In this document: positions 20,025 through 37,942 of the stretch, piece after piece
How the letters are laid out: every line of letters begins with the position of its first letter
How positions within the stretch are numbered: the stretch's first letter is position 1
Notes under the pieces: model-generated
Database searches by the model: none
Told to the model about the DNA's origin: nothing
What the model saw: the letters and a program-made list of their open reading frames with translations, nothing else
Translations under genes and position numbers: made by a program
NCBI GenBank assembly: GCA_013375485.1
Contig: JABXKB010000002.1
Span: 1-41,591 of the forward strand
Origin: Promethearchaeota archaeon
GTDB lineage: Archaea > Asgardarchaeota > Lokiarchaeia > Sigyniarchaeales > SOKP01
Reading direction: 5' to 3'
Length of the DNA stretch: 41,591 nt

Positions 20025-20615
20025 ATGGAAAAAGAAGAAACTATAATCTATTTCGTAACTGAAAATATTCATAAATTTAATGAGATTTCTGATCTTTTCT
20101 CAAAAACGAAGACTAACTATAATTTAAAAAGAAAAGAAGTTGAAACTGTAGAAATTCAAGCAACTAATCTAAAAGAAGTAGCTTCATTTAAACTGAATAG
20201 TGTAAAAGGGCAAATAAGTGGCTCTTATTTTATAGAAGATGCGGGATTTTTTGTAGATACCCCTCTAAATGGTTTTCCGGGGGTGTATTCTTCATATGTC
20301 ATGAAAACCATTGGTAATAAAGGAATATTAAAATTAATAGATAATTTTGATGAAACTCAAGCTCATTTTACATCAGTAATTGCACTTTACTTTAAACCTC
20401 TTGATGTATCTTTATTTTTTGAAGGAAAAATTTATGGAAAGGTCTCAAAAACTTTAAGGGGTTCAGGTGGCTTTGGATTTGATCCAATCTTTCTTCCTGA
20501 TATTATTCCAAATAAAACATTCGCAGAATTAACAACAGAGGAGAAAAATAAAATTTCTCATAGGGGAAAAGCATGGAGTAACTTTATTAAATTTATTAAA
20601 GAGAATAAATATTAA
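20025..20615 (+). CDS. rdgB: XTP/dITP pyrophosphatase (HAM1/RdgB family)
   Basis: This enzyme removes deaminated purine nucleotides (ITP, dITP, XTP) from the pool, giving the monophosphate and pyrophosphate. The 196-residue protein shows FVTENIHKFNEI (10-21), the active-site EDAGFFVDTPLNGFPGVYSS (71-90), GSGGFGFDPIFLP (147-159) and ISHRGKAW (177-184), all canonical. Length is normal. The ATG at 20025 sits close to the first motif. It is on the plus strand alone, divergent from rps15. Confidence 0.95.
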   Translation: MEKEETIIYFVTENIHKFNEISDLFSKTKTNYNLKRKEVETVEIQATNLKEVASFKLNSVKGQISGSYFIEDAGFFVDTPLNGFPGVYSSYVMKTIGNKGILKLIDNFDETQAHFTSVIALYFKPLDVSLFFEGKIYGKVSKTLRGSGGFGFDPIFLPDIIPNKTFAELTTEEKNKISHRGKAWSNFIKFIKENKY

Positions 20616-20642: not shown

Positions 20643-23618
20643 TTAGAATGTTTGCCTGAAAATATCCATAATACTTTTCTTGTAGAAATACTTAATTAAA
20701 ATTACATATGTACCCAAAAATGCGAAGGAAATTGATATAATAAATACTCTGAGTAATACATCAGTAGGAATAGTGAAAACTACCGGCATCTCCGTCATAA
20801 GACCCATTGTGGTTTCTAAAAGGTAAGCTGTAAATGTTCCAATTATGGTCCCCATAATACCTGCAGCAAGCAAAATAATCATGCTTTCTATTAAGAACAT
20901 ATTTCGAACATTCCTCGTTTTCATTCCCATTGATCGAAGTATCCCAATTTCAAATTTTCTCTCTAATATAACTGCGTACATGCTACTAACTAAGCCAAAA
21001 ATACTTATCATTACTGTAAACATTAGAATTAATTCCATTAGGAAACTTTGTCTTTCTGTCATTGCTTCCATGAAATTAATTTTAGAAATCGCATCATCAA
21101 TTATTATATCCTTTTCTTGATACATTTTACGAATTTCATCTTTAGTCTCTTTGATATTTTCTTCCGATTTTTCTATTAAATTTATAAAAACTTTATCTAC
21201 AATCATACTACTCTCTCCAGGGTTATCAATTTTCATCAATCGCATATAATTTTCTAATGACACCATGACACCCCCTCCATTAGCAGACATCTCATTAGTT
21301 CGGAAATTAAAAAATCCGGGAATTCCACCTGAAATTCCTGCAACTCTAAATAATGTTACGTTACCAGGATCATTTTCTATTTGAGGATCAAAGAATGTTA
21401 TTCGTACGTATTCCCCTACTTCTGTGATACCAAGTAAACTCGCGATAGATTTTGCGATTATACATGTATTATTGTGAGTAAATAATTCATTGAAGGAATG
21501 TTCGGTATTGCTACCATCACTTCCCCAGATTAACAAGTCTTCATCAATTAAATCAACGAATTCTTCATTAACACCTATAAATCCAGCATTTACCACATCA
21601 AAATCCATCATATCTCCCACAGTAGTTTGAAATTTTGTTTCTTCTTGATCTGAATAGAATTGAAACATATTCATCATTATTACTTCTGAAGAGTCACCTG
21701 AAAAACCAACTTGCCCCTCACTAACTTCAAAAAGTGTTGCTAAAGTGGCTTGAAAATCGAAGGTATTATGTAATGATATTGCTATTTTATTTAATCCTGC
21801 TAAACTTTCTAACTCTTCCACCATTTCAAGAGTTAGAGCGTCATCAGGATTATATAATTCTTGATTCATTAATACTAAATCTGAGCCATATTGAAACTTT
21901 AAATTTAATGCTGTATTCTCTGACTCCATTTCAGAAACACTTGTAATGAAGAAAATAAACGAAAAGCTAATAGCAAACATAACCACAGTACTGGTATTAC
22001 GCCTTCTATACCTTTTTAATGAAATTCCAATTATAGAACTATATTTTCTTATCCCTGGAGAAATTACTCCTAAAAAGATTTTCTGAATTAGAGGAATAAT
22101 CCCTATTGAAGCAAATACTAAGCCGATTACAATCGCAGCAAGTAAACCAACAAATAATCCTGAAGTCAACATGAAATCACCAGTAACAAAAATATTTGGC
22201 ATTAAGATAAAAACTATCATTCCAATAGTAGCAACTGAAATACCAGTAAGAAAACTTTTTACATTCATACTCCCTTCTTTCTTAACTTCCCACCCTTCTT
22301 CTTTAGTTTGAAATGGAGTGATTGATTTTATAATATTGATCTTTGCAGTTTTAAGAGCAGGTAGTAAAGAAACTGCTAAGGACACTACTGTTCCTATTGT
22401 AAATGTTAATATTAGCGTGTCAGGCTGAATAACCCATTTTACTTCTGCAAAATCAAATTGAAACTCATACATGGGGAATATTATTTGAGATATTGGTCTC
22501 ATTAAAGTTACACCTAATATCATTCCAACAATTGAGCCAATAAGACCTAACATTAAGCCTTCAAAAAGAACCATTTTTATAGGATATGATTTTTTTCCCC
22601 CGACAACTCTAGTAATACCAAATTCTCTCTGGCGCTCTTCCGCTGAAGTAGATAAGATACTATTTATTAATATACCAGTTATTAGTGTGGAAAGGAGTAT
22701 AATAACCCAGAATATTATTGTAACCATCATTAACATGAATTGACCCCCTTCAAGCTCCTCTAATTTCGGAAGATTTACAGAAAATTCGTTAAGATCTAAT
22801 CTTTCTTGTATCCTTGTCCCTATTGCTCGTAGTCTTCTAGTTGTTCTATCTAAATCACTTGCATCATAAACGGATTGTGGATTATTAATAGTCCCGACTA
22901 CAAAATTTATTTGACCTTCTCGCTGTAAGAATGTTTGAGCTTGCTGTATATTAACAAGAATTAAGGCTGTTTCAAATTGCATGAATCTAAGATCTTGAAT
23001 ACAAATTTCAGTAACGGTTAGATTTAATTCATAAGTTTGATATTTCATAAGTACAATATCACCTTTACTAACGTTAAGAATTTCTGCAACATTCCATAGG
23101 ATAACACACTCGCCATTGTTTGGCTCTTTATCATAAATCTCACCTGTTTCTTTCCCTTCGTCATCTATAATAATCAAATTCCCCATATTTCCATTTGTAG
23201 CTTCCTTCATAAAATCGATGCCATATAATTGTAGAGAACCACTTGTGTTAATTTTATTTGATGTTGTTGTTACTAACATTGAAATACGTGGAAATAACTC
23301 CTCAACACTTTCGATATCCTTTAATTTATCATCAATAATATTTTCATCATAGAAGGGATCAAATGTTAAATCAGTTTGAATTGCACGAGTAATCATTATA
23401 TCACTCTTTCCTGTGGTAGAAGTGACATACAATAGGTAATTATAATTTACTGTATCATTTAACATTCCAACAACTGTTAATAGAAATAATGAAATTGCGA
23501 TCCCAGATATCCCAAATAACGCTTTTGTTTTGTCTCGCTTGATATCAAGCCAGGAATGTTTGAAGAATTGAAGATTTATCCTTTTTTTCAGTTTATATAA
23601 AAATCCTCTCAATTCCAT
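20643..23618 (-). CDS. FtsX/MacB-type ABC permease, last gene of the protease operon
   Basis: The 991-residue protein has two FtsX-type membrane domains and large outer domains. A first helix at 33-53 is followed by about 240 outer residues (MacB-like), then helices near 296-320, 348-374 and 402-424. A second half follows with helices near 455-510 and 545-565, another outer domain, and the last FtsX domain ending in YFYKKSIMDIFRQTF. The cytoplasmic loops after helices carry EERQREFGITRVVGG (327-341) and, near the C-terminus, ERKFEIGILRSMGMKTRNV, the usual contact to the ATPase. Such proteins use ATP binding to move the outer domains rather than passing substrate through a pore. It is a paralogue of the 32442-35447 permease, so the two may form a heterodimer. 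Confidence 0.88.
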   Translation of the reverse strand: MELRGFLYKLKKRINLQFFKHSWLDIKRDKTKALFGISGIAISLFLLTVVGMLNDTVNYNYLLYVTSTTGKSDIMITRAIQTDLTFDPFYDENIIDDKLKDIESVEELFPRISMLVTTTSNKINTSGSLQLYGIDFMKEATNGNMGNLIIIDDEGKETGEIYDKEPNNGECVILWNVAEILNVSKGDIVLMKYQTYELNLTVTEICIQDLRFMQFETALILVNIQQAQTFLQREGQINFVVGTINNPQSVYDASDLDRTTRRLRAIGTRIQERLDLNEFSVNLPKLEELEGGQFMLMMVTIIFWVIILLSTLITGILINSILSTSAEERQREFGITRVVGGKKSYPIKMVLFEGLMLGLIGSIVGMILGVTLMRPISQIIFPMYEFQFDFAEVKWVIQPDTLILTFTIGTVVSLAVSLLPALKTAKINIIKSITPFQTKEEGWEVKKEGSMNVKSFLTGISVATIGMIVFILMPNIFVTGDFMLTSGLFVGLLAAIVIGLVFASIGIIPLIQKIFLGVISPGIRKYSSIIGISLKRYRRRNTSTVVMFAISFSFIFFITSVSEMESENTALNLKFQYGSDLVLMNQELYNPDDALTLEMVEELESLAGLNKIAISLHNTFDFQATLATLFEVSEGQVGFSGDSSEVIMMNMFQFYSDQEETKFQTTVGDMMDFDVVNAGFIGVNEEFVDLIDEDLLIWGSDGSNTEHSFNELFTHNNTCIIAKSIASLLGITEVGEYVRITFFDPQIENDPGNVTLFRVAGISGGIPGFFNFRTNEMSANGGGVMVSLENYMRLMKIDNPGESSMIVDKVFINLIEKSEENIKETKDEIRKMYQEKDIIIDDAISKINFMEAMTERQSFLMELILMFTVMISIFGLVSSMYAVILERKFEIGILRSMGMKTRNVRNMFLIESMIILLAAGIMGTIIGTFTAYLLETTMGLMTEMPVVFTIPTDVLLRVFIISISFAFLGTYVILIKYFYKKSIMDIFRQTF

Positions 23619-23648
23619 ATTCTTTATACATCACTTTTTAATTATTCG

Positions 23649-26600
23649 TTATATATCTAAAATACTAAATTTCCTTTTCTTTGTCTTAAACTGCCTTAGT
23701 ACTTTTCCTTCTTTATTTAAAATTTTTTGAATCTCATCTGTTTCGCGTCTAATTAATCTCACTCCTTCGCAGGACTTACTTTTACAATAATAATTTTCTC
23801 CTGGTTCATCGAAAAATTGAAATTTCCCACAATTAGAACAATTATATGCTGCATAAATTTGATCATGCTCACATTCAGGGCAAACCATATCGAATTTCAT
23901 AGCTAAAAACCATGATCTACATGATTTACAATATAAAGTTAAAGGTCGGGTCAATTCTTCTTGGTCTTCAATTAATTCTATATGTTTAATTACTTGATCC
24001 TTATCAATATCTTTTAGTCGAACTTTTTCAACGCGAGCGTTTTTTATATTTTCAATCCATACTTTTCCCTTTTTTTCAGCGAGAATAAATAATACCCCTC
24101 CTATTACGATTGCTATAATAAAAATTATGATATATGGACCCCACATCTGCCACCACCTCATATTATTAACAGTCACGATAATGAATGCTTCTGCTTTATT
24201 TCCTTCTTTATCATATGCTATTACTTTTAATTCATACGTCCCATCATTAAATTTAATAGTATCCCAATTAAAAACTAAAATACTTGTAGTACTATTAAAA
24301 TTGAGCTTACTCATGTCAACACTTTTATTGTTAAGAAGTATGTAAATTCTTGAATTATCTACCTCTACATTATCAAATATAAATGCTTTAACGGTTACTA
24401 ACGATTTAACAGTTATATCAGGTTCAGGATTAAGTATTTGAATTTCAGGAGCTATAAAATCCGCCGATTTATCATAACCAATATAAATATTCGATAATAA
24501 CCATCCATATCCTATACCTGCAACGTTATCATTTGAATATAATGTGAAATTTATCATTATGTCCTCATTGGAATATTGAGAAATATCATATTTTTTACTC
24601 CCAGAAAGATCATCATTTTCATATATAAATTCTCTAAGAATTATCCAAGTTTCCCCAAAATCTTTCGATATTGACACAATACACTTATCTAACTGATCTT
24701 CAGGTACATAAAATTCATTTTGCAATGAAATTTCATAGTCAAATTCAAGATAAACATTGTATTCATCTTCTAAATGTAATGGGTGAGTTATTAATCTTGT
24801 ATTCCAATTTGATCCATATCCTTGATCTGCACTACCATAACTTTGCCCCATCCCTCCATAAAGAAGAGGTGATCCAAACCGAATTATTGGATGCCAGGTA
24901 TTATCTCCCCCAAACCATGCAGTTATTTCTTTTTGTGTTGGTATTCCTGTGACATAATAGTCTAAAAGATTTGAGTTTGAAAAATAATATCCTATGAATT
25001 TATTATCTTTATATACAGTAAATTCTAGAGGATCTGGATTTTTAAATTCAAAAAGTGAGTTATTCGTATTATACCATTGAGATGCAATTATATTTTTTCC
25101 ATCTGAAACATGAAATCTGAATGATTTATTAGAGATTTCTTCTAAAATTAAAGATCTACTAAAATAAATGCCCGTATCTCCTACATCATTCGAGCTAGAT
25201 TTCCAATCACCATAGAGATTATATAAAGTAAAATTGTTATCATCCATCTCTAAATATACAAAACTAGGATAATTATTATCTAAATCAAAATACTCACATG
25301 AAAATGAATATTTCTGATATTTTGAACCCTGTATTGAGGAAATATCATTATTTAGGTTAAATAGAATTGTTGGAATGTTTACATTTGTATAATTTTCAAT
25401 AGCAAAACAATCTAAAATAAATCCTTTATAATTTATCGTATCAATATTATCATCGAGAGATGTTTCAAATCTAAATTGTATAAAATTTCCAATATATTGA
25501 GTCAAATTGATCTCTTCCATAAACCACTCTTGCTCGATATTAGAATATATTCGTAGTGTTATCCACCCGGTCCAATTTAGATTAATTTGTAAATAAAGAG
25601 TGTCTCCTGCATTAAAACTAGCTCTAAATCCAAATTTTACAAATGGCTGAGTAGTATTTTCATTAAGGTTTGTCAAATTAAATAGAGGACTAACTAAAGT
25701 ACCATTTGGAAATGCATCTTCTGAAGTACTAATGGGTTGATATGTATAATTTTTTGGATAATCATAATATATACCAAAATACAACGATTTCCATGAATCT
25801 TGATAAATCCGTGATCTATCATCATTAGTATTATTTTGTTGTAGCATTCCCCACCCAGTTCCCGAATATGTCCAATTTCCGATTCCATCATTAAAATCAT
25901 GACGATTTGGGAATTGTATGCTGTCAGTTGGAAATACGATTGTAATATTAAGATATTCTGTTTCCGGATACAAAACTTTAGATTTTCCATCGCTAGCAAT
26001 AAAGTAGTAATTGTATATACCGGGATTTGGAAATTGAATGTAGTCACTCATGAATAATGCGCCATCTGTGTAATTATTATCTGCTGGATTGAATTGAGTT
26101 AATGTATAGTTTTCAAAGGTTTCTAAAATTGAAACATAAACTTCTTGAGGAGGAACATTTGAAGTATCGTTATCGAAATATTCAATATAAAATCTATAAC
26201 TATCAATACTATAATTTTTCTTTGGTTCATAACCCATAAATTCTTGAAAACTCATGATTGTTGTATTTTTTGAACCACCCAAATAATTGATTTCAGGAAC
26301 TTTTAATTCTGGTTTAAAATTATTCTTAACAGTCGAAATATTCAAGATAAAATCACTTTTTCCCTCAATTGCCTTTACAATGATAACACAATTAGTTTGA
26401 TTATCTTTAGGTGTAAAATAGAAATTATCAAAATCTCCATACCATTTTCTAGAAGATTCTAATAAGAGCGGTTCACCATATTGATTTGACTCATTAGAAA
26501 AAAGGAATATATCAAAATCAGCATTTGAATCTGCTACTGATAAGCTAAAATTATATTGATTATCCTCAATAAGGTCAATTTGACGCGCAAACACATGTGT

Positions 26601-28448
26601 TCCAAGAGGATTTTCCTGAGAACTTGTTAAATTTCCATTTATAGATTTACCGACCCTCATATTTTTAGTTAAAGCATCAATCGCAGCCTCAATGTTTAAT
26701 CTCCCATAGCCTTCATGAATATCCTTTAAACCAGATGTTAACGGAGCTACAGATAAAGAAGGTGAATGATCACTCTCAACAAATGTAGTGGAAGGATCAT
26801 CTTCTCTTTCAAGGTTAGTCTCTGAAGCAGTCATCAATAAACAAGCCTTAATGTACTTCACCCATTTTGTTAAATTTAAATTGCTCCATTGATTCCAATT
26901 ATTCCATTTTGCTTCTATTAATATATTAACAGCAGCTGAAACTATAGCAGTAGCAATCGATGTACCGTATGCTGCAGTAACTTTGTCGAACTCTCCATCA
27001 GCACCTATAACTGAGCGATGACCTGGTAGTTTGCTCCCCCCAGGCGCAACGATGTCTGGTTTGGCAATATTATCGATTTCTTTACCCATACTGCTATAGG
27101 AGGTAACTTGATCCTTATCATTTATCGCACCGACAATAATTGCATTTTTATTTTGAGCTAATCTATTTAATGAATCAGAAAATTCTACACCTTTATTTCC
27201 AGCAGCAATTACCACTAACGTACCATTTTTTATTACCTCATTTATTATAGTATCTACTGCTGATACATCTTCTCCTAATGTACCAACACTTAAGCAAACA
27301 CTAACTATATGGTGCTTACTTTTATTTTGTATTATACTTACTAATGCAGAAATCAAATCAGAAGTATACCCTATTCCGGAATGATTTAAAATCTTATATG
27401 CGACTATTTTAGTAGCATTTGCAATGCCTGTAAAATGATTCCTATCACTAATATATACTTCAGGTAAAAAAGAGATTGCACTATTAAATGAAAATATAGG
27501 ATTACTTTGAAAATCTCTATTATATTTTAGATATATATCATAAATACCTAATTTAGTTTGAGGTACATTATGATCTATGATATAATATTCATTTGGATTT
27601 TTATTATAGGTATAATTCACTAAAGTATTATTATAATACAATTCAAACCATAATTTTAGTATTCCGTCAGTTTTATTATTCCATGTAGAATTAATCATAA
27701 TGCTTGAATCTTCTTTAGAAGCGTTAAAAGAAAACAGTTTTAGAGTGAAATTTTGCATGGCAGACCCCCCCCCAAATAACTCTATATGTGAATAATTGCC
27801 ACGGATCTTAGCGATTGAGGGATTACTCGAATTATATGGTTCTGTACCTGTTCCTGAAATAATTGAACTAATTAAAGTTCCATGACCATTATCATCGGAT
27901 ATCGACTGCATATTTACGAAATTTTCCCAGCCAATAATATCTCCAGTTAAAAAATTGTGACTTGGGTTAACTCCCGAATCCAATACAGCTATAGAAGAAT
28001 TAGTATCACCCTTTAACCCATTCAAATACCATGTAGAATTTACAGCTCCCGATTGAATAGATGCATAATTCATTTGAGCTTCCAAAATTTCGTCAGTTTC
28101 AATTATAGCATCTTGAAAAAGATTATGAAAGGCGATTCTATTTATTTCAAGAGGCATAACACCAGCGAATCCTGAAAAAGCACTAGATTGATTATTCCAT
28201 TCTTTTTTGATAGTTCCTCCATAATATTCAAACCAATAAATAACTGTATTATTATAAGAGGATTTCTTGAAATAGACAATGATATTTTGATTATAATCAC
28301 TTGAGAGTTCAGGATCAAATTCAAATTGATCTTTATTATCTTTTTCATTTGAATAATTATTTAATTTCATACTAGTAAGGAATAAGTTCGTAAATGAAAA
28401 GGTCAGAACCAATATAATAAAAATGGAATATAATTTCTTTTTAATCAC
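23649..28448 (-). CDS. Membrane-anchored subtilisin-like protease with cytoplasmic zinc ribbons
   Basis: This secreted S8 serine protease has 1599 residues. Order: signal helix (about 7-27); an inhibitor-I9-like propeptide (50-125); and a catalytic domain with D157 (AVLDSGV), H189 (DDNGHGT), oxyanion N417 (AAGN) and S497 (YGTSIATA). About 140 residues are inserted between the His motif and the next strand. Then come beta domains: one like the pre-peptidase C-terminal domain near 615-710, two jelly-roll/MAM-like regions near 860-1010 and 1180-1330, and an Ig-like domain near 1340-1425. One helix (1436-1457) follows. The cytoplasmic tail has CxxC pairs at 1507/1510, 1523/1526 and 1537/1540 and a CxxxxC pair at 1555/1560, predicting two zinc ribbons. 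The start is a GTG with a GAGGAG site seven bases ahead. It lies between two ABC-linked genes. Confidence 0.92.
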   Translation of the reverse strand: MIKKKLYSIFIILVLTFSFTNLFLTSMKLNNYSNEKDNKDQFEFDPELSSDYNQNIIVYFKKSSYNNTVIYWFEYYGGTIKKEWNNQSSAFSGFAGVMPLEINRIAFHNLFQDAIIETDEILEAQMNYASIQSGAVNSTWYLNGLKGDTNSSIAVLDSGVNPSHNFLTGDIIGWENFVNMQSISDDNGHGTLISSIISGTGTEPYNSSNPSIAKIRGNYSHIELFGGGSAMQNFTLKLFSFNASKEDSSIMINSTWNNKTDGILKLWFELYYNNTLVNYTYNKNPNEYYIIDHNVPQTKLGIYDIYLKYNRDFQSNPIFSFNSAISFLPEVYISDRNHFTGIANATKIVAYKILNHSGIGYTSDLISALVSIIQNKSKHHIVSVCLSVGTLGEDVSAVDTIINEVIKNGTLVVIAAGNKGVEFSDSLNRLAQNKNAIIVGAINDKDQVTSYSSMGKEIDNIAKPDIVAPGGSKLPGHRSVIGADGEFDKVTAAYGTSIATAIVSAAVNILIEAKWNNWNQWSNLNLTKWVKYIKACLLMTASETNLEREDDPSTTFVESDHSPSLSVAPLTSGLKDIHEGYGRLNIEAAIDALTKNMRVGKSINGNLTSSQENPLGTHVFARQIDLIEDNQYNFSLSVADSNADFDIFLFSNESNQYGEPLLLESSRKWYGDFDNFYFTPKDNQTNCVIIVKAIEGKSDFILNISTVKNNFKPELKVPEINYLGGSKNTTIMSFQEFMGYEPKKNYSIDSYRFYIEYFDNDTSNVPPQEVYVSILETFENYTLTQFNPADNNYTDGALFMSDYIQFPNPGIYNYYFIASDGKSKVLYPETEYLNITIVFPTDSIQFPNRHDFNDGIGNWTYSGTGWGMLQQNNTNDDRSRIYQDSWKSLYFGIYYDYPKNYTYQPISTSEDAFPNGTLVSPLFNLTNLNENTTQPFVKFGFRASFNAGDTLYLQINLNWTGWITLRIYSNIEQEWFMEEINLTQYIGNFIQFRFETSLDDNIDTINYKGFILDCFAIENYTNVNIPTILFNLNNDISSIQGSKYQKYSFSCEYFDLDNNYPSFVYLEMDDNNFTLYNLYGDWKSSSNDVGDTGIYFSRSLILEEISNKSFRFHVSDGKNIIASQWYNTNNSLFEFKNPDPLEFTVYKDNKFIGYYFSNSNLLDYYVTGIPTQKEITAWFGGDNTWHPIIRFGSPLLYGGMGQSYGSADQGYGSNWNTRLITHPLHLEDEYNVYLEFDYEISLQNEFYVPEDQLDKCIVSISKDFGETWIILREFIYENDDLSGSKKYDISQYSNEDIMINFTLYSNDNVAGIGYGWLLSNIYIGYDKSADFIAPEIQILNPEPDITVKSLVTVKAFIFDNVEVDNSRIYILLNNKSVDMSKLNFNSTTSILVFNWDTIKFNDGTYELKVIAYDKEGNKAEAFIIVTVNNMRWWQMWGPYIIIFIIAIVIGGVLFILAEKKGKVWIENIKNARVEKVRLKDIDKDQVIKHIELIEDQEELTRPLTLYCKSCRSWFLAMKFDMVCPECEHDQIYAAYNCSNCGKFQFFDEPGENYYCKSKSCEGVRLIRRETDEIQKILNKEGKVLRQFKTKKRKFSILDI
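27765..27773 (-). repeat. Nine-base G-run inside the protease gene
   Basis: On the coding strand nine consecutive Gs encode part of FGGGSAM (225-231), between the catalytic His and Ser codons. A one-base slip would shift the frame and remove the catalytic Ser. Runs this long of G are conspicuous in an AT-rich sequence. Confidence 0.9.
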
Positions 28449-28455
28449 TCCAAAA

Positions 28456-28461
28456 CTCCTC
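28456..28461 (-). promoter_or_regulatory. Shine-Dalgarno site overlapping an upstream stop codon
   Basis: GAGGAG on the minus strand ends seven bases before the protease GTG start and overlaps the TAG stop of the upstream surface-protein gene at one base. This decides the GTG start and suggests translational coupling of the two products. Confidence 0.65.
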
Positions 28462-31400
28462 TATTTTTTACTCTTCACCAATTTATCTATTTGTTTATCT
28501 TTATTAAATTCAAAACTATTATCCTCGTATTTGTTTTCGTATTTGTTTGAGAGTACGCTTAATCTTTCTCTTAACGTATGTTCAACTTTAAAAATTGTTT
28601 CTCTTGAGCTAAGTTCAAAAATCAGCATTTCAGATCTTTCGAATTCACGCTTTTTCTTTTTATATTTTCTGATTTGCCAATTATATACGACTAAAACTGC
28701 AAATACAATTAAAATTGGTAAAAATACATAATAAAATTGCCTAATTTTTGGTGTAATAACTTTTATTATAATAATGTTTGATGATTCTTCATTTTCTTGT
28801 AGATAATAAAATTTAATACTAGCAGGTTTTAGACTTACTAAAGCTTGTCTTTTCGCTTTAAGTGAGTAATTAATATTAACTTTTTCATTTGGCTCTAAAG
28901 AATCAATTAAATTAACTAATTTTCCCTCTAATAAAGAAAAATCTGACTGGGAATAACTTATTATATCATTTACTTTTATATCTTCTACTACTATTGTTCC
29001 TGTATTTTCTACTTCGATATTCACGATAATCGCATCTCCATTTTCAATTTGATCTCTATTCACAGATTTAATTATCGAAAAGTTAATTTCCCCTAATATT
29101 TTGAATAGGGAATTAGAAATTTGTATACTATTACTTTCGGAACCTTCAATATAATTTATTGAAGGATAGAAATATCCTTTCCATCCAGTTTTTTTTAAAC
29201 TTATATGAAAGGAAATTCTTTCATTATATGCAATATCTTCAAAATATAGTGAGTGATTATCAATTCTCCTTAAATCATAATACTGATCCTGCATTAAAAC
29301 ATTGATATCAGGGATTTTAAATTTATTGGGGCTTGTATTTTTTATGTTTACCGTCAAATTAAAAACATCACCAATAGTAGGTATGTTATTAATTAGATTT
29401 GTATCACTATTATTATAGTAAATTTCAATTGTTCTAACAAATGGGGAAAAATCTTCATAATCTACAGCGGCAGATATATAAACCTCATTAGTTAAACTCA
29501 TTACTTTAGAAGAATTACCTCCTTGAACACTTTCTGGATTATAATAAATAATTGAGATTTCGCTAATTGAAATTGAGTTTGGTACATAAAATGTAAAGTT
29601 CAATGTTTTTTCTTCAGAAGGAGCTAGTTTTTTTAAGAAATATGATAAGTTGCTATTTTGAAGAGTGAAATGATTTTTATTATCTATAATACCTGGTATT
29701 GATAATGAAATGCTCAAATTTTCTGCAAAGTTAGAACCAATGTTCTTAAAATTAATATAATATGCATTTAATTCTCCAGGTTTAGAATTATAATCCACCA
29801 AATATGAATATGCCACAATTGATGCTGCATTAAAAGTATTTAAGGGAATAGAGTTAGATCGCCTTTCAAATTGAACATAGCCCGTTGAAGAGCCATAAAT
29901 AACTCTCGAACCAGAATCTTCATTAAAGTTAAGATCTCTTGTGGAAAATTCAATATCCAAATCATTAACAGAAATATTAAATTGTTCTGAATTTATACAA
30001 ATGATTCTGAATAGAACTGTATAGTTATTATTATCTAGTGGATAAAAAAGCCGATCTAAACTCTCGTTGTTATTAACTATTGAGAAGGTCCAAGTATTAT
30101 TTATAATTGAATCTAAATATGGACTTATATCTTTATATTCCTCAGCATTAAAATCATAAATTTCAAAATTTAAGGACTCTAAATTATCTGGATTCGTTAT
30201 ATTTATTATGATAGAAACTCTTTCTAACGTGTTATTAACGAAATCAATATTTGTGTCATTTTTAAAAATAAATTCAAGCTCTATTCTTTGTTCTAAGAAT
30301 TTTTCAATCGACCCGATTATCCAACTCTCATTGTCGGTCGACAATGCCATTTCTGGAGTTGTTTGGTCCAATTCCACTCCTGAAATAATTTCAGGAGTAG
30401 TAGGTATAGATTCAATTGTAAAATTATTTAAATAAAATGATGAAAATGAATCTAAACTGGAAATAGAATGATTATCAATTTGGTATGATATTGTCTCTGC
30501 GGGTTCCAATTTCCAATTATCATCATTCCAAATACTCTTTTCATTAGTAAATAACTCTTTTACAGTATCAACATCGAAAATTGGGAAATAAAACGGGTTT
30601 TCATCATCTACGATTTGAATAATATCATCCGCATCTTCATTATAGGGCCATAAATTTGACGTATTATAAAAATTTGGATAAAATGTATCATAAAGTCCCG
30701 TACCAAATGAATCAAAATAGAAGATACGAGGATCTTCATCAAAATTAAAAAAATCTTCTAATGATTCATATTGATTTGGATATTCAATATTGATAACTTT
30801 CCACATATCATTCTTAACATTCTCCCATTGAACAGGACTTACTATTTGAAGAAAATAATCAAACTCTATTGGAAGGTGAGTAGGAACACCCCATGCAGTA
30901 ATATCACCAACATTTTCTGCAGAGATATAGTATGAGAAATTACGATATGCTCCGTATGAAGCATTTCCTCCTAATAATTCCTTTTTGATTAATAAATTAG
31001 GTTCTGAATAAGAAACATTGTAAATAACAGAAAGTTCCATAAATGGATTTACAAGTCCTGTTGGAATAGAAGAAAAGCCTTGAAATCCGAATTGTTGTAT
31101 CAGATTAATAACATCATTAGGATCATTTAAGTTAACAGGTTTAACAAAAGATTGTTTAATTCCTCCATCATCTACCCAAAACAATTCAAAGGAATAGTCT
31201 TTAAGAGCTTGAGCATCAAATTCGCTCCCCATAAGATAGAATAGCAATCCTATTTGCTCTAAAAGGTAATCATAAAACTCAAAATTTATTGGAGTTGCAT
31301 CAATGATATCAGTACATAAAATGTTTATTTCAATATTGCTCATAAAAGCACCAGTTAATGCAATATATATTTTTTCACTAGGTGATAGAGGTTCTCCTTC

Positions 31401-32426
31401 ATAACCCAATGATTCCCATAAATTGAAACTATATTGATTCTTTCCTACTTTTTGAATACCTTCACTTAGACCTTCATATTGAATCGATATACTTGTATAA
31501 TGTGAATCATTTGTAAGCGTAAATGCACCAAAGATTTCAATAAACTGTTCTAATTCATTTTCAGATATAGTCGCGTTAAATAAATCTCCATACTCCTCCA
31601 TGATTGTATCGATCTGATCAAACAAATCCTCCATTTCTAAATCTTGTAAGAATGATAGCTCAAGTGATTCTGTATTAAAGTTTATCTGATCTGTTGATAT
31701 ATTGAAATCACCATCAAAGAAATCTAATGAATTCAGAAGCATGAAGGTTGAAGATACATGATAATTTTCTAAATATTCTTTACTTATTAAACGATTTATA
31801 TCTAATGCCTTCCAATATCCATCCATTGGAAAATTACTTGTGAGTTCCTGAAAAAAGCAATCCCAATTTGGATAATATCCAACAAAAGGGAAAAAATTCT
31901 GTTCTGATACATTAACCATTATTAAATCAATCATAAATTTCCTTCTTATAATCTCAAGTGCTCTTTCTGCTTTTAATTTAGCATCTTCAACATCAACCTC
32001 TTTATCATAGTAAAGAAATCCAACAAAATTGTTGAATCCTACAACATATTGAGAAGGGATGTCACTCTCAGTCAATATTGTTGGAAAAATGTCCGGATTA
32101 ATTCCATTTGAAGCACTTATAATTACGTTACATTTAGAGAAAGCGGGATCATTTGAATCAAATTGAGAAAGTATATTTGTATCATTTGTAAAGAGTGATT
32201 GTTTTATTATAGATTTGTTTCCCGCTACAAACGCATTAATATTTTCAGCATATAGATCTGATCCAGCTATATCTGAAGTCTTCATAATGTTCCCCTCCGT
32301 TTCTGTTATACTCTTTTCTTCTTCTGAAAATAACTCATCAATATTTTGAAAGATACTTAAATTGAGGGGACTGAGAAAAACCATTAAGCTTAAAATGAAA
32401 AATACTATGAAATTATTTTTTTTCAA
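28461..32426 (-). CDS. Large single-span surface protein of the ABC-protease operon
   Basis: I do not recognise the N-terminal half. The 1321 residues begin with a signal-peptide-like helix (about 6-25), followed by roughly 1200 extracellular residues rich in Asn, Asp and aromatic residues. Four segments resemble CARDB/DUF11-type surface repeats, with an aliphatic strand then N-x-G: near 507 (SAENVGDITAW), 894 (FKNIGSNFAENLSISL), 1025 (NIKNTSPNKFKIPDI) and 1139 (EVENTGTIVVEDIKV). One helix (about 1230-1252) leads to a 69-residue basic cytoplasmic tail with possible coiled coil. It lies between the permease and the protease, so it could be substrate, scaffold or co-receptor. The start is a TTG at 32426; an ATG upstream is out of frame by one base across an A-run. 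Confidence 0.8.
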   Translation of the reverse strand: MKKNNFIVFFILSLMVFLSPLNLSIFQNIDELFSEEEKSITETEGNIMKTSDIAGSDLYAENINAFVAGNKSIIKQSLFTNDTNILSQFDSNDPAFSKCNVIISASNGINPDIFPTILTESDIPSQYVVGFNNFVGFLYYDKEVDVEDAKLKAERALEIIRRKFMIDLIMVNVSEQNFFPFVGYYPNWDCFFQELTSNFPMDGYWKALDINRLISKEYLENYHVSSTFMLLNSLDFFDGDFNISTDQINFNTESLELSFLQDLEMEDLFDQIDTIMEEYGDLFNATISENELEQFIEIFGAFTLTNDSHYTSISIQYEGLSEGIQKVGKNQYSFNLWESLGYEGEPLSPSEKIYIALTGAFMSNIEINILCTDIIDATPINFEFYDYLLEQIGLLFYLMGSEFDAQALKDYSFELFWVDDGGIKQSFVKPVNLNDPNDVINLIQQFGFQGFSSIPTGLVNPFMELSVIYNVSYSEPNLLIKKELLGGNASYGAYRNFSYYISAENVGDITAWGVPTHLPIEFDYFLQIVSPVQWENVKNDMWKVINIEYPNQYESLEDFFNFDEDPRIFYFDSFGTGLYDTFYPNFYNTSNLWPYNEDADDIIQIVDDENPFYFPIFDVDTVKELFTNEKSIWNDDNWKLEPAETISYQIDNHSISSLDSFSSFYLNNFTIESIPTTPEIISGVELDQTTPEMALSTDNESWIIGSIEKFLEQRIELEFIFKNDTNIDFVNNTLERVSIIINITNPDNLESLNFEIYDFNAEEYKDISPYLDSIINNTWTFSIVNNNESLDRLFYPLDNNNYTVLFRIICINSEQFNISVNDLDIEFSTRDLNFNEDSGSRVIYGSSTGYVQFERRSNSIPLNTFNAASIVAYSYLVDYNSKPGELNAYYINFKNIGSNFAENLSISLSIPGIIDNKNHFTLQNSNLSYFLKKLAPSEEKTLNFTFYVPNSISISEISIIYYNPESVQGGNSSKVMSLTNEVYISAAVDYEDFSPFVRTIEIYYNNSDTNLINNIPTIGDVFNLTVNIKNTSPNKFKIPDINVLMQDQYYDLRRIDNHSLYFEDIAYNERISFHISLKKTGWKGYFYPSINYIEGSESNSIQISNSLFKILGEINFSIIKSVNRDQIENGDAIIVNIEVENTGTIVVEDIKVNDIISYSQSDFSLLEGKLVNLIDSLEPNEKVNINYSLKAKRQALVSLKPASIKFYYLQENEESSNIIIIKVITPKIRQFYYVFLPILIVFAVLVVYNWQIRKYKKKKREFERSEMLIFELSSRETIFKVEHTLRERLSVLSNKYENKYEDNSFEFNKDKQIDKLVKSKK

Positions 32427-32441
32427 TATTCATTAATCCCC

Positions 32442-35400
32442 CTAAAGAGTTTCTCTATATATTTCAACAATTTTTTGCTTTCTTGCTTTTCTTAGCAATA
32501 ATTTCATTCCAAAAAAAATCATTGCTATTGAAAGTGAATAAATTAAGATAATATTAAACCAAGGAACATATAATACATTAGTAGGCATACCCATTAAAGT
32601 GCCTATCAGCTGGCTGGATACAAGCCAGCTAGTAACCCAACCAACTATAATCCCGATAGTTCCACTACTTATCATTATTATTAAAGATTCAAGTATAAAT
32701 AATCGATTAATTTCTCTTCCTTTTAATCCTAATGTTCTAATTATACCAATCTCTTTCTTTCTTTCAATTATTGTAGAATATGATGAGGATAATAATCCAA
32801 AAATGCAAATAAAAACAGTGGTAAGAGATATGAGAGTAAAAAGTGTATCAATTACAAAGAATTGTGCTTTTTGTTGTGCTACCATTCTTGCTAGATTGGA
32901 TATGTCATAATTATAATTCATTTCGTATGTTTCATCAATTAGTTCCTCAATATAACGAGCTTCCGATAATTTATCTTCTCGAAGTTTAATGAAAATTCTA
33001 TCTAAATAAGGTATTGGAGGGATATCCATAATTTCAATATAAGTATCTTGTGAGATTAACACACCACCCATTGATGCGCCCATACTAGATCCTGAAAATT
33101 CTAGGCTAAATCCAGGCATACTTTTAGCGGTACCAATTATAACAAAAGGGTACACTTCCAGTTCATCTCCTCTATAAATTACAATTCTTACTTTGTCTCC
33201 AATTAACAAAGACATAGCTATTGATATAGCCTCAGAAATAATACAAGTATAGGATTGATTGTTTTCAAATAAATTTTGAAAAGAAGTATCTATATTTCCA
33301 GAAGTCATTTCTATTAATTCCCTTCTTACAGTAAAGGGATATTCTTCATCAATTCCAATTAAAGTTATCTCTTGGGTTGTTAATCCTGTATAATCCCCAA
33401 TTTCAGCTATAAATTCCTTATTTTCTTCAGCATAAATTTGAGTTAATTGATATGTTCTAGCTAAAACTGATGATACTTTCTCAATACCATCTATAGCCAT
33501 TAGGTCTTCCTCAAATTCAGTAGTAATGATTTTTGTTGGATTAATAGAAGCATCATAATTTTGCTTCAGGCGTGGTTCTAAACCTTCATTGAAGTTATTT
33601 CCTTCATTAGCAAATAAACCAAAACCACCTCCACCTCCTCCCCCAATAGAATCTTCCCATCCATTAGTTTCAATAAGTAAATCTGAGCCATACCATAATT
33701 TAGTTGAAATAGTTGATTGTGCAGACAATGTATTAATAAGAGACGAGGTGAAAATAACAAACGAAAAAGACAATGCAAATATTATAGATGTGCTTGAATT
33801 CCTCCTTTGATATCGGAACACAAAAATCTTAATTGTTGAGTGCAATCGTCTTGCTAAAGGTCTAAATAATTCTATTACAAGTCTTAAGATTACGGGCATT
33901 AATCCTAGACCTGCTAACGTTAACCCTATATTAAATATTAATAAAATCGCAACTAATGTCCCAGCAAGTAATGCCATATCCACTGAAACCAATATTCTAG
34001 GTATCACATAAAACACAAAACCCCCATTGAAAGCCAGGATAATCCCAACTAAAATCAATTTATAATTGACTGAAGCTTTTTTTTGTAAATGATATAATGT
34101 ATCTTCGTGGCGATAAGGGTGAATAGATTCTATTAATTGAAGACGCATTACCTTTAAGGCAGGAGAGATACTAACTAATAATCCTACGCTAATACCTATT
34201 ATATATGTTATGATAATAGACCACCAAGTAAAGGAGAATGGTATATGACTAAAACCTAATGCACTTTGTGCGATTACAGAATTTGCAAAAGGTATTATAA
34301 CAAATCGAGAAAGTACATAAGCTGTTATTATGCCTGAAAGTGCACCAAAATTACATAATAAGAAACCTTGCATCAAGACAATAGCTAAATTAAATTTTTT
34401 ATTCGAACCTAAAGTTCTAAATATTCCAAATTCCCTAATTCTCTCTTCTACAGATGTTTTTAATATTCCATTAATAAGAACACCTGAAATAAGCATTGCT
34501 ATAATAGAAACAAACACAAACACGATAACTAAAAAAACACTTAAAAGTTCTGCCCATCCTAATATCCTTAGCTTAGGCAGATCAATGTGGTATTCATTAA
34601 TTCCGATTGCAATTTGAATGTCGGTAACGAGATTTTTCACAAGAATATCGGTTCCTTCAAGATCTCTAATATCATACAACGAATTACCTTCTTTGAAAGT
34701 TAAAATTAAATCACTGCATTTTCCTTTAAAATCATCAATACCAAAAATTTGATAAAGTGTATTAATATCAACTACAATTAAATTATCATTACGATATCCT
34801 GCTGGCCATTTTAAGTTAAAATCAAAAATTTGATCTATTATCAAAGTTATTGTGCGATTTAGGGCTTTACCTTCATGAGTTATGTTCACTTTAATATCTA
34901 TTGTATCTCCTTCAGAATATTTTATAAAGTCATTAAATCTATAATAAATTGCACAATGATTTAAGGGTAACTCGTTTAGATCAAGTAACTTATCATATAA
35001 CGGTTCTTTAAAAGCTCCAAAATTAATGTCATTTTCCAAAGAAAAATTAATTGCCGAGATTGTACACCATACTTCTTCATTTGTTAGTTCTATAGTATAA
35101 AAACCCTTAGAAACATTAACTTCTCCATATATATCCATTCGTGGGATATAATCTTCAACAATATCCGTTGTGTTTTCTATTGTTTGAATAAGAGGATCAT
35201 ACTCAAAAAAAGAAGACCTATTTTCAGGTTCTCCATTATAATGTCTTACTGAAATAATTGCATCTTGATTTCCAGAATCTATGGACAAAAAATCCACATA
35301 ACCCACAGAAATAGAATCTGATAAAAATAACACAACTGTAAGAAGACCTATGGAAATAAGCATTCCTAAAACTGCTAAAATCGTTCTTATCTTTTGTTTT

Positions 35401-35447
35401 CGCAAGTCTAAAAATGCATATTTAAAAACCAGCTTGATATGTGTCAT
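32442..35447 (-). CDS. FtsX/MacB-type ABC permease, second gene of the protease operon
   Basis: This 1001-residue paralogue of the 20643-23618 permease has the same plan. An N-terminal helix (about 20-45) is followed by an outer MacB-like domain, then FtsX helices near 300-420 with the cytoplasmic motif VEERIREFGIFRTLG, a second membrane and outer half, and a C-terminal FtsX domain with IERKKEIGIIRTLGLKGREI. It carries a glycine-rich loop (SIGGGGGGGFGLF) in its second outer domain. Sequence between the two permeases is clearly diverged, so they are not a recent duplication. It lies 47 bases after the ATPase gene and 15 before the surface-protein gene. Confidence 0.9.
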   Translation of the reverse strand: MTHIKLVFKYAFLDLRKQKIRTILAVLGMLISIGLLTVVLFLSDSISVGYVDFLSIDSGNQDAIISVRHYNGEPENRSSFFEYDPLIQTIENTTDIVEDYIPRMDIYGEVNVSKGFYTIELTNEEVWCTISAINFSLENDINFGAFKEPLYDKLLDLNELPLNHCAIYYRFNDFIKYSEGDTIDIKVNITHEGKALNRTITLIIDQIFDFNLKWPAGYRNDNLIVVDINTLYQIFGIDDFKGKCSDLILTFKEGNSLYDIRDLEGTDILVKNLVTDIQIAIGINEYHIDLPKLRILGWAELLSVFLVIVFVFVSIIAMLISGVLINGILKTSVEERIREFGIFRTLGSNKKFNLAIVLMQGFLLCNFGALSGIITAYVLSRFVIIPFANSVIAQSALGFSHIPFSFTWWSIIITYIIGISVGLLVSISPALKVMRLQLIESIHPYRHEDTLYHLQKKASVNYKLILVGIILAFNGGFVFYVIPRILVSVDMALLAGTLVAILLIFNIGLTLAGLGLMPVILRLVIELFRPLARRLHSTIKIFVFRYQRRNSSTSIIFALSFSFVIFTSSLINTLSAQSTISTKLWYGSDLLIETNGWEDSIGGGGGGGFGLFANEGNNFNEGLEPRLKQNYDASINPTKIITTEFEEDLMAIDGIEKVSSVLARTYQLTQIYAEENKEFIAEIGDYTGLTTQEITLIGIDEEYPFTVRRELIEMTSGNIDTSFQNLFENNQSYTCIISEAISIAMSLLIGDKVRIVIYRGDELEVYPFVIIGTAKSMPGFSLEFSGSSMGASMGGVLISQDTYIEIMDIPPIPYLDRIFIKLREDKLSEARYIEELIDETYEMNYNYDISNLARMVAQQKAQFFVIDTLFTLISLTTVFICIFGLLSSSYSTIIERKKEIGIIRTLGLKGREINRLFILESLIIMISSGTIGIIVGWVTSWLVSSQLIGTLMGMPTNVLYVPWFNIILIYSLSIAMIFFGMKLLLRKARKQKIVEIYRETL

Positions 35448-35494
35448 ATGGCTAAAAATGATTTAGATTTTAATTTTACACCAATTATAAATTT

Positions 35495-36673
35495 TTAATT
35501 CAAAATTAATAGTTCTCCTTCAATTCTTCCAAAAAAATTGTTTTCTTCTATTAGTTCCTGTAGAATATCATTAAAATGCTCCGGTAAATTCATAATAATA
35601 GAATTTGGAATGTTATTTTTAATATCACTTATTACAATTTCTCTTTTCCCTTGATTCGCATATAGATATTGGATAATCTTACTTTTACATTTCTCTTTAT
35701 TTATTTCGGTTTCTTGTCTCCTCTTTAATTGCATAATCTCAGTCTCTTTTAAACCTCCTATTTTTCCTTCATGAGTAAGTTTTCCATCTCTCATATGAAA
35801 AACTTTAGTAGCAAATTCTGATACAGCAGCATCGTGACTTACTGCTATAAAAGTTGCTCCACGTTTGTTCAAATCCCTAATAAGGTTCAAAACCATAACT
35901 CCTGTTTTTGAATCAAGATCACCCGTTGGTTCATCAAGAACACATATAGCTGGATCATTTGCGAAAGCCCTAGCTATCGCAACTCTCTGCTGTTCGCCTC
36001 CACTCAGTTCAGAGGGCGTATGATGTGCTCTTTCATCTAAACCTACTAACCTTAAAAGATCCATCGCCTTTTTTCTTTTCCCTCGACGACTTAGCTTCCC
36101 TGAAAAATGCAAAGGTACCATAACATTTTCCATAGCAGTCATTTGAGGGAGTAAGTTATAGAATTGAAATACAAACCCTATCCTCTCTCTTCTAATTTCA
36201 GCAAGATCATTGTCAGAAAGCATTGAAATGTTTCTGCCCTCTAAAAATATTTTACCTCTCGTAGGTGTATCAAGTCCTCCAATTAAATTGAGCAATGTTG
36301 TTTTCCCCGATCCTGAAGGTCCCATAATATCAATGAAATCTCCATTATCTATAGTTAAATCAATGCCTCGAAGTGCTGCTACTGCTGTGGTTCCTAATAA
36401 ATATGTCTTATGGAGATTTTCAACAACTATTAAATGTTCATAGTCTTTTCCAGCCCTCCTATCTTCTCTAATTTCCTTTTTCATCTTTTTTTTTTCCATC
36501 TTAGATTGAGTAAGTATTTCCACTTTTTGTTGCTTTATTTCTTCTTGCTTTTTCTTTTTTTTCCATTTTTTAAATTGCTTCGAAACATCGCCTTTCCAAA
36601 TTGCTAACTTACCCGTCTCTTGTTCATATTGCTCCATCAGAGGAGTTTTTTTAATTGTTGGTGATTTAGTCAT
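35495..36673 (-). CDS. ABC ATPase of LolD/MacB type with extra terminal domains
   Basis: The core (about 80-305) is a complete LolD/MacB-class ATPase: Walker A GPSGSGKTT (118-126), Q170, signature LSGGEQQR (223-230), Walker B ICVLDEPTGDLD (243-254) and switch H280. It powers the two FtsX-type permeases downstream. Family members usually have about 220-240 residues; this has 392. The extra N-terminal 78 residues are highly basic and coiled-coil-like (KKWKKKKKQEEIKQQK). The extra C-terminal 65 residues (about 328-392) look like a winged helix (IIQYLYANQGKREIVIS, then FGRIEGELLIL). These could tether regulators. It is first in the operon. Confidence 0.93.
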   Translation of the reverse strand: MTKSPTIKKTPLMEQYEQETGKLAIWKGDVSKQFKKWKKKKKQEEIKQQKVEILTQSKMEKKKMKKEIREDRRAGKDYEHLIVVENLHKTYLLGTTAVAALRGIDLTIDNGDFIDIMGPSGSGKTTLLNLIGGLDTPTRGKIFLEGRNISMLSDNDLAEIRRERIGFVFQFYNLLPQMTAMENVMVPLHFSGKLSRRGKRKKAMDLLRLVGLDERAHHTPSELSGGEQQRVAIARAFANDPAICVLDEPTGDLDSKTGVMVLNLIRDLNKRGATFIAVSHDAAVSEFATKVFHMRDGKLTHEGKIGGLKETEIMQLKRRQETEINKEKCKSKIIQYLYANQGKREIVISDIKNNIPNSIIMNLPEHFNDILQELIEENNFFGRIEGELLILN

Positions 36674-36887: not shown

Positions 36888-37109
36888 TTATTCATTACGA
36901 AATTTTATTACGAGAATTAGCCCTACAATAATAGGAATACTTATTGTTATACTAAATGTCAATGTTATTCTAAAGATTATCGTTAGTCGAGATATTGGAA
37001 GTCCAAGACGTTCATTAATCCAAAGAAATACAAAGAAAGATATAAGACCAGTTATTATTTCCAAACCGGCTATTCCAAATAAGATAAACCCTATATTCTT
37101 TTTTTTCAT
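36888..37109 (-). CDS. Small two-helix membrane protein
   Basis: The 73-residue product has two probable membrane helices (about 5-30 and 46-68) joined by a short polar loop (ERLGLPISRLT), with a positively charged N-terminus (MKKKN). GGGCGA about nine bases before the ATG supports its translation. I do not recognise a family. It lies between the RNase III gene and the ABC ATPase gene on the same strand but with gaps of over 100 bases on each side, so membership of either transcript is unclear. Confidence 0.55.
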   Translation of the reverse strand: MKKKNIGFILFGIAGLEIITGLISFFVFLWINERLGLPISRLTIIFRITLTFSITISIPIIVGLILVIKFRNE

Positions 37110-37216: not shown

Positions 37217-37942
37217 TTATTTCGTTTTTAGATATTCTAAGATTTTAGTATAGATGTCTTTTTCCGAATCTCTTTTGTTTTTAAATTTGCATGATTTCAA
37301 GTTTATTGGTATTTTTAGAAGTGTTTTTTTACTAAATTTATCAATAATCCTGGGATTCTTAGCTATCCAGATCAAGTCGTGTTCTTCTCCACTTTTTTCA
37401 TATTCAAGTTCGATAGTTATATTAGTTTTGAATTTTTCTTGTAAGAATTCTAATAATGTATTTTTACTAGAAATCATTGAAGTCTGAATAATTAAATTCA
37501 AATCTTCGTAAAAAGGATTAATCATTTTTTGTTCAACTAAATTCAGATTATACTCAGAATCAAGAAATAAAGCACCACATATCGATTCAAAGATATCAGC
37601 TAGAATACGAGTACCTTTTATTCTTTGTTTTTCTGTCTTTAAAATATATTTTTCTAAGCCAATTTTTTTTGCAATATTTTTTAGGGCATTATCACTTTCT
37701 AGAGTTGCTTTTATTTTTGTAATCTCGCCTGGGTCTTTTACTCCCTTTTTATAAAGTTTTAGAATAAGAACAATTTTAATTACAGCATCTCCCAGTGTTT
37801 CTAAAAATTCATAACTAGGGATTCCAATTTCATTTCCCAATTGGGGGGTAGTTAAGGATTCTAGTAAAAGTTCTTTATTATTAAATTCATAATCTAAAAA
37901 TTCTTGGAATTTCCTTAATTTATCCATCTCGTTTATATACAT
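37217..37942 (-). CDS. rnc: Ribonuclease III with double-stranded-RNA-binding-like domain
   Basis: RNase III cuts double-stranded RNA and is common in bacteria and eukaryotes but scarce in archaea. The 241-residue protein keeps the family signature YEFLETLGDAVIK (44-56) and ILADIFESICGALFLD (113-128). E45, D52, D116 and E119 align with the four catalytic acidic residues of E. coli RNase III (E38, D45, D114, E117). Residues about 160-238 resemble a dsRNA-binding domain (NTLLEFLQEKFKTNITIELEYE, GEEHDLIWIAKN, then a C-terminal helix), although the usual G-x-G-x-SKK loop is not plain. A second ATG five codons in is possible. It stands alone on the minus strand. Confidence 0.9.
   Translation of the reverse strand: MYINEMDKLRKFQEFLDYEFNNKELLLESLTTPQLGNEIGIPSYEFLETLGDAVIKIVLILKLYKKGVKDPGEITKIKATLESDNALKNIAKKIGLEKYILKTEKQRIKGTRILADIFESICGALFLDSEYNLNLVEQKMINPFYEDLNLIIQTSMISSKNTLLEFLQEKFKTNITIELEYEKSGEEHDLIWIAKNPRIIDKFSKKTLLKIPINLKSCKFKNKRDSEKDIYTKILEYLKTK

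Follow-up and report, generated by a model that had tools for sequence, protein, structure and literature searches.

Permeases of Type VII ATP-binding cassette (ABC) systems such as MacB and FtsX carry an outer domain after helix 1 and a coupling helix between helices 2 and 3, and spend ATP on mechanical work outside the cell (mechanotransmission). In LolCDE, two different permeases are served by one ATPase gene, with LolC and LolE being single units of four helices that pair. FtsEX switches on cell-wall hydrolases; we know of no peptidoglycan target in archaea. In nisin resistance, the transporter NsrFP is accompanied by the protease NSR, which we take to be a member of family S41. According to the available sections of the respective sources, NsrFP/NSR of Streptococcus agalactiae combines in one operon a membrane-associated serine protease and a BceAB-type transporter with 10 predicted helices, the system having one permease with one outer domain (between helices 7 and 8), a two-component system and a known peptide target, and it exemplifies how a protease may share its outer peptide target with a related ABC transporter (PMC5583591). 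The permease YbbP of the Escherichia coli system YbbAP-TesA has 10 helices (12 in one figure legend of the same source), with one outer domain between helices 1 and 2 and another between 7 and 8, coupling helices between 2 and 3 as well as between 8 and 9, and a 2:1:1 ratio in the complex, which bears a GDSL esterase on its outer side (PMC12646458), and the mycosin MycP is essential to ESX secretion while its protease activity is dispensable (PMC5082899). Here we describe a set of five genes that shares traits with each of these systems and probably encodes an ATP-driven machine working outside the cell. It lies in a 41,591-nucleotide stretch of a Promethearchaeota archaeon (assembly GCA_013375485.1, contig JABXKB010000002.1, positions 1 to 41,591), to which we refer in its full length as the window.

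Organization of the gene set

Five open reading frames (ORFs) on the minus strand fill positions 20643-36673 of the window in the order ATPase-perm1-surface-subtilisin-perm2, separated from the first gene to the last by 47, 15, 12 and 30 bases. We thus confirm the coordinates and small gaps of the original prediction, which was made from the sequence alone. The genes, with lengths in amino acids (aa), are:

35495..36673, minus strand: ABC ATPase, 392 aa; LolD/MacB-type ATPase preceded by a charged N-terminal extension and followed by a winged-helix-like C-terminal tail (about residues 310-392)
32442..35447, minus strand: perm1, 1001 aa; duplicated permease of the FtsX type with about 10 hydrophobic spans and two large outer domains; its coupling motifs lie at residues 333 and 893
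28461..32426, minus strand: giant surface protein, 1321 aa, TTG start; signal peptide-like N-terminal end, outer part of about 1200 residues
23649..28448, minus strand: membrane-anchored subtilisin, 1599 aa, GTG start; S8 domain, Ig-like domain, membrane span, cytoplasmic double zinc ribbon
20643..23618, minus strand: perm2, 991 aa; the other duplicated permease of the FtsX type and sister paralogue of perm1; its coupling motifs lie at residues 326 and 884

The ATPase belongs to the Pfam family ABC_tran. Its best NCBIfam match is LolD, the likeness it shares with LolCDE and MacAB, and since the score of 238.7 bits falls below the cut-off of 307.75, it is not LolD itself. The FtsE model scores 204.2 bits against a cut-off of 264.85. 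The winged-helix-like character of its C-terminal tail relies on a weak Pfam match (E 0.023).

Each permease contains two stretches matching Pfam FtsX (PF02687; E 2.9e-28 and 5.3e-31) and is an internal duplication, with about 10 spans and large outer domains after spans 1 and 7 when the hydropathy profile is grouped by eye. Both halves contain an alignable coupling motif in all 16 perm1 rows and in 18 of the 19 perm2 rows, the last row being incomplete; in one perm1 row from family f1 a glycine of the motif is replaced by alanine, and a stricter motif pattern missed variants of f4 and f1 as well as one first half. Hydropathy by eye and motif alignment thereby place outer domain and coupling motif where Type VII permeases have them. 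The plan resembles YbbAP-TesA in the duplicated 10-helix permease with two outer domains (a likeness based on hydropathy only), in the coupling motifs after helices 2 and 8 and in the hydrolytic enzyme outside, but differs in having two permeases rather than one, a membrane-anchored S8 subtilisin in place of a GDSL esterase and a 1321-residue surface protein as constant companion. The YbbP model NF041854 matches perm2 only, with 19.7 bits against a cut-off of 999. FtsEX shares the FtsX domain, the match of the ATPase to FtsE and an outer hydrolase as possible target, whereas the permeases described here are duplicated, with 991-1001 residues, and score far under the FtsX_Gneg cut-off of 255 bits (perm1 21.6, perm2 28.4). 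The set shares with LolCDE the combination of two different permeases and one ATPase gene. Unlike LolC and LolE, each permease is already a double unit, and unlike BceAB-type permeases each has a further large outer domain, placed between spans 1 and 2. Because of the two coupling motifs and the YbbP-like plan, each permease should hold two ATPases, and it is unlikely that one ATPase dimer would serve both simultaneously, which makes the single dimer of the original prediction doubtful.

The origin of the pair was traced in a tree of 40 rows (15 perm1, 17 perm2 and 8 outgroup). Perm1 and perm2 each form one clade, with supports of 100/99 and 99/96, and the two clades are sisters at 100/100 against the outgroup. 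With the tree rooted on the eight outgroup rows, family f4 branches first in both clades, while f3 is one clade in the perm2 part and is not resolved in the perm1 part. Since the clades are sisters with f4 first in each, the pair most likely arose from one duplication before families f1 to f4 split, and then travelled together. Pfam and the tree thus agree with the assignment of two different FtsX/MacB-type permeases in the original prediction, which mentioned neither their internal duplication nor the ATPase tail nor the eight-cysteine zinc ribbon of the subtilisin.

Conservation of the gene set across Asgard genomes

For a view of its distribution, 227 genomes of the phylum were searched with perm1, the surface protein, the subtilisin and perm2. 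The order to which the window belongs comprises 79 of these genomes, with families labelled f1 to f4. In most genomes, scoring covered the best two or three candidates, and all counts of presence and absence below hold among the matches listed. The ORF maps of the loci keep the longest ORFs and may hide real genes (the ATPase of genome G157, on stretch L042, was found only by tblastn), and frame breaks in perm1 of G084, the surface gene of G092 and some others were left uncorrected.

The four genes stand in the order perm1-surface-subtilisin-perm2, on the same strand of one contig, in 38 of the 79 genomes (31 f1, 1 f2 and 6 f3), a grouping that exceeds chance. At least one of the four occurs at operon level in 64 genomes of the order; the set is partial or split in 21, for some of which contig ends may be the cause, and G089 has both permeases with neither the surface protein nor the subtilisin. 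G121 was counted as split: in this single-contig genome the set lies in two far-apart places (L084, L085), both ending inside genes, as a result of either an assembly error or a rearrangement.

The ATPase follows the same pattern. Its tail was found in 53 of the 227 genomes, all from f1-f3; in 51 of them its distance upstream of the perm1 match is at most 125 bases, and the remaining two (G148, G091) have it on another contig. Of the f4 genomes, G158, G161 and G157 have the ATPase ahead of perm1, and the contig of G160 begins within perm1; for the two f4 ATPases scanned, weak Pfam matches under the cut-off (E 0.0004 and 0.003) suggest a longer tail that is PCI-like. Both the four-gene order and the position of the ATPase tail thus bear out the conserved synteny that the original prediction implied. 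A contact between the ATPase tail and the zinc ribbon of the protease was considered and is weakened by G100, which keeps the tail (62% identity) without an operon subtilisin. In three genera of f3, a Rag/Gtr1-like GTPase protein of about 500 residues is encoded on the same strand just upstream of the ATPase (recognized by Pfam in two and by BLAST in the third):

L046:2592-4184, L047:2049-3563 and L048:16392-17873, same strand as the ATPase: Rag/Gtr1-like GTPase protein, f3

Outside the order, an ATPase adjoins a duplicated permease in seven mapped stretches from families f26, f15, f17 and f9, with no match to the surface protein or the protease. A pattern search for close relatives of perm1 gave 25 matches, seven of which were confirmed, all of them Lokiarchaeota or Lokiarchaeia records from metagenome-assembled genomes. 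In the f26 genome G176 (L050:1284-12471), two paralogous gene pairs are enclosed by two ATPase-permease pairs, and one gene of the paralogous pairs (L050:6404-7015) has an ArsR-type helix-turn-helix.

The giant surface protein

Both giant proteins of the set show one hydrophobic span at the N-terminus and one near the C-terminal end in hydropathy plots. The surface protein carries 31 N-glycosylation sequons over its whole length and ends in a TRAP-beta/DUF11-like Ig domain (residues 1117-1214), a single membrane span (1227-1253) and a short cytoplasmic tail. The membrane-proximal domain is matched by Pfam TRAP_beta in all 11 surface proteins scanned (best E 2.2e-21), with overlapping matches to DUF11 in eight and CARDB in seven of them, and it matches TRAP-beta chains in the PDB with E 0.00026. 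The protein accompanies the permeases in f1-f4, including protease-less f4, where its identity is 23-24%. Two small open frames of 190 and 176 aa (G177 and G163; L086, L087) match its TRAP-beta-like region.

The subtilisin and its absence

In the subtilisin, Pfam recognizes Peptidase_S8 and Big_7. Its catalytic residues in the window are Asp157, His189 and Ser497, with Asn418 as oxyanion residue, and a long outer part with an Ig-like domain leads to a membrane span (1432-1461) and, at the C-terminal end, to a cytoplasmic double zinc ribbon with eight cysteines (1507-1560) that gives weak Pfam matches only. Its best NCBIfam match is the mycosin model TIGR03921, with 65.6 bits against a cut-off of 278.75. 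Like mycosin, it is a membrane-anchored subtilisin tied to a membrane machine; the differences are a set of five without any ESX gene, a large outer part and the cytoplasmic zinc ribbon.

All eight cysteines are conserved in the 21 operon subtilisins aligned. Matches to stand-alone subtilisins were mapped in seven stretches (L068-L074), the longest-ORF maps of which contain no ORF matching the operon ATPase or permeases. Six of these subtilases were aligned, the incomplete one in L068 being left out; all have intact triads, and the eight-cysteine set is absent from all six, with a single cysteine at one column in one of them. The zinc tail occurs in 55 of the 227 genomes, 52 of them from f1-f3, and no strong match outside the gene set was obtained in this search, the matches in G080, G081 and G034 and the second matches in G092, G135 and G137 being faint (E 7.8e-6 to 7.4e-4).

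Five genomes have the surface gene and perm2 adjacent with no subtilisin in between (G100 from f1; G157, G158, G160 and G161 from f4). In f4, the adjacency is direct in G158 and G161 and runs across contig breaks in G157 and G160, and f4 genomes are not among the zinc-tail matches. In G100, the two ORFs are 3 bases apart beside the usual Ham1 and S3Ae neighbours, and the genome gave no subtilisin match at E 0.001 (two candidates scored) and no zinc tail (all candidates scored); proteases of another kind may yet occur in G100 or f4. In three further genomes (G085, G086 and G092, all f3), the subtilisin is of full length and keeps its serine, with Asp157 replaced by Gly, His189 by Leu, Leu and Gln, respectively, and Asn418 by Asp. 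These three cluster together in both permease clades, and one inactivation before they split is therefore the simplest reading. The protease part of the operon looks optional, because five genomes retain the surface protein and perm2 without it and three retain it in broken form. Perm2 is followed in three genomes of f4 by a gene for a VWA protein that bears RING-like zinc motifs. The partial matches of this protein include TFIIH Ssl1/Tfb4 (Pfam in two, BLAST in the third), and it might serve as a partner in the cytoplasm wherever the zinc-tailed protease is lacking:

L040:5707-6984, L041:4842-6191 and L043:1007-2302, after perm2: VWA protein, f4

Flanking genes and empty sites

In the window, the set is framed by two genes that also mark the edges of its empty site in other genomes:

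37217..37942, minus strand: RNase III-domain protein (rnc), one edge of the empty site
20025..20615, plus strand: Ham1-family protein, adjoining perm2; the other edge of the empty site

Among the mapped loci of f1, rnc is next to the ATPase or one small ORF away in genera g1, g8 and g9, Ham1 is beside perm2 in genera g1, g2, g3, g5 and g8, and one edge or the other is common to most. We searched for the two flanks in 13 genomes, 12 without the set and one (G134) with a fragment of it, and found them close together on one contig in six. In G126 and G115, which belong to the genus of the window, the rnc and Ham1 ORFs are 19 and 107 bases apart with otherwise matching neighbours; one 121-aa ORF stands between them in G101 and G102, and ORFs of 460 and 117 aa in G106 and G107. 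Because the flanks are near-adjacent in genomes without the set, it can be lost, or was gained, as a whole unit; loss is favoured because the permease clades agree family by family. We do not favour horizontal transfer as source of the patchy pattern, given this broad agreement of the perm1 and perm2 clades and the rnc or Ham1 edge that most mapped f1 loci keep. Between rnc and the ATPase, reading by eye shows a short hydrophobic frame of some 73 codons (36888-37109, minus strand); the gap is shorter in some relatives (e.g. L034), with no space for it.

Discussion

We give an even chance to a twin-permease Type VII machine that works through the giant surface protein and has the subtilisin as an add-on. 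In such a machine, the single ATPase gene would serve both sister permeases, each a fused pseudo-dimer of about 10 spans with two outer domains that most likely takes up two ATPases. The outer domains would close and open as ATP is bound and hydrolysed, with no passage across the membrane being required, and the surface protein would be the constant outer partner receiving this motion. The subtilisin would be anchored beside the permeases and the surface protein as an additional subunit, which in most lineages may cut something that the machine presents, such as membrane-anchored surface proteins or peptides. Its lasting role might be structural or regulatory, exerted by its fold and its cytoplasmic zinc ribbon, and would be akin to that of mycosin, where the MycP precedent suggests that a membrane-anchored subtilisin can matter to its machine without catalysis.

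Several observations weigh against this interpretation. That the two permeases share one complex, rather than forming two, is a guess. As to the Porter/Sabre fold of Type VII outer domains, MacB_PCD matches perm1 only; some outgroup rows of the permease tree have long branches, and the second coupling motif is altered in f4, from Arg to Glu in perm1 and from Arg to Lys in perm2. AlphaFold models of perm1 and of the outer part of the surface protein reached a mean predicted local distance difference test score of only 31.8 (alignment of 8 sequences) and 30.7 (6 sequences), respectively. Since all four catalytic residues are intact in 18 of the 21 operon subtilisins (the window and 17 of 20 relatives), catalysis clearly matters in most lineages. 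Among the f1-f3 genomes with the surface gene and perm2 close on one contig, the subtilisin is found between them in 41 of 42 (G121 left out), and in f4 genomes subtilases encoded at other sites (e.g. in G158, 33% identity) could take over in trans. The whole frames of the dead proteases support the interpretation, with proportions of nonsynonymous (pN) and synonymous (pS) differences of 0.213 and 0.708 between G085 and G086 and of 0.423 and 0.685 between G086 and G092, but synonymous divergence is saturated in the dead pair and the pN/pS ratios are only a guide. Finally, the gene set is dispensable, since not one of the four genes was seen in 15 of the order's 79 genomes, 10 of these 15 being at least 91% complete.

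A more far-reaching reading, to which we assign about half the weight of the machine just described, is a hitherto undescribed kind of Type VII machine with twin duplicated permeases on one ATPase, built around the giant surface protein, in which the subtilisin would be structural in some lineages and dropped in others; it may serve the maturation or quality control of newly exported glycoproteins of the Lokiarchaeal cell surface.

Somewhat less probable is the ATP-gated surface protease at the centre of the original prediction, where the permeases would transmit the motion that switches the subtilisin on, in the way FtsEX acts on cell-wall hydrolases. The fixed position of the subtilisin between the surface gene and perm2, its intact triad in most operons and the FtsEX precedent speak for this idea, as does YbbAP, which bears a hydrolase on its outer side; yet ATP stimulated that hydrolase little, as far as the available part of the report goes (PMC12646458). 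The protease as object of the machine fits poorly with the surface gene and perm2 persisting without it in one f1 and four f4 genomes, and with the full-length but catalytically broken protease of three f3 genomes, where the machine would still need a job. Other parts of that prediction fared unevenly. Its second suggestion, a machine that loads or processes surface proteins, may hold. The neighbourhood is retained in relatives, and no zinc-tailed subtilisin was seen alone, six matches outside the gene set being faint, whereas subtilases without the tail do stand alone. In other Asgard families, permease relatives have ATPases of their own as partners, accompanied by neither protease nor surface protein.

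It is unlikely that the set consists of two independent transporters sharing an ATPase gene and an operon, for example perm1 with the surface protein and perm2 with the subtilisin. The gene order would suit such a division, as would the two coupling motifs in each permease and the presence of only one permease in 8 of the 64 genomes with any of the genes (for which contig ends may again be a cause), but both permeases are found in all 38 complete blocks, and perm2 remains in the five genomes where the subtilisin is gone and must thus have a job without it. We consider equally improbable a defence against antimicrobial peptides, in which permeases pull toxic peptides off the membrane for the protease to destroy, since, despite the NsrFP/NSR operon as model (available part of PMC5583591) and the absence of the set from its site in some genomes, as might be expected of a conditional trait, the operon genes include no two-component system (none being found by Pfam among the five genes and further window proteins scanned, a subset of its ORFs), each permease has two outer domains and not one, the protease is optional, the 1321-residue surface protein is constant, and the broad agreement of the perm1 and perm2 trees across families speaks more for descent than for a patchy transfer of the kind that resistance genes should show.

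To our knowledge, little has been charted of the cell surface in Asgard archaea. We found no such gene set described in the open-access PMC literature, in line with the original remark that no archaeal system of this composition was known, and archaea are not mentioned in those parts of the Type VII and MacB literature that were checked for the word. TRAP subunits have already been reported in Asgard archaea, where they are treated as parts of the translocon, and the available sections of these reports do not mention a giant TRAP-beta-bearing protein (PMC11417166, PMC10307638). Because the TRAP_beta model matches the surface protein in 11 of 11 members, a Pfam-based census of TRAP-beta in Asgard archaea could pick it up.

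With some reserve, the set might be counted as a previously undescribed composition of a Type VII ABC system, in which twin duplicated permeases and one ATPase are joined by a giant surface protein with a TRAP-beta-like domain. The naturally occurring versions without protease and with a dead protease are ready-made tests of which part does what. If the twin-permease machine acting through its surface protein is real, it would bring a giant surface protein of archaea under the Type VII principle of ATP-driven work outside the cell.

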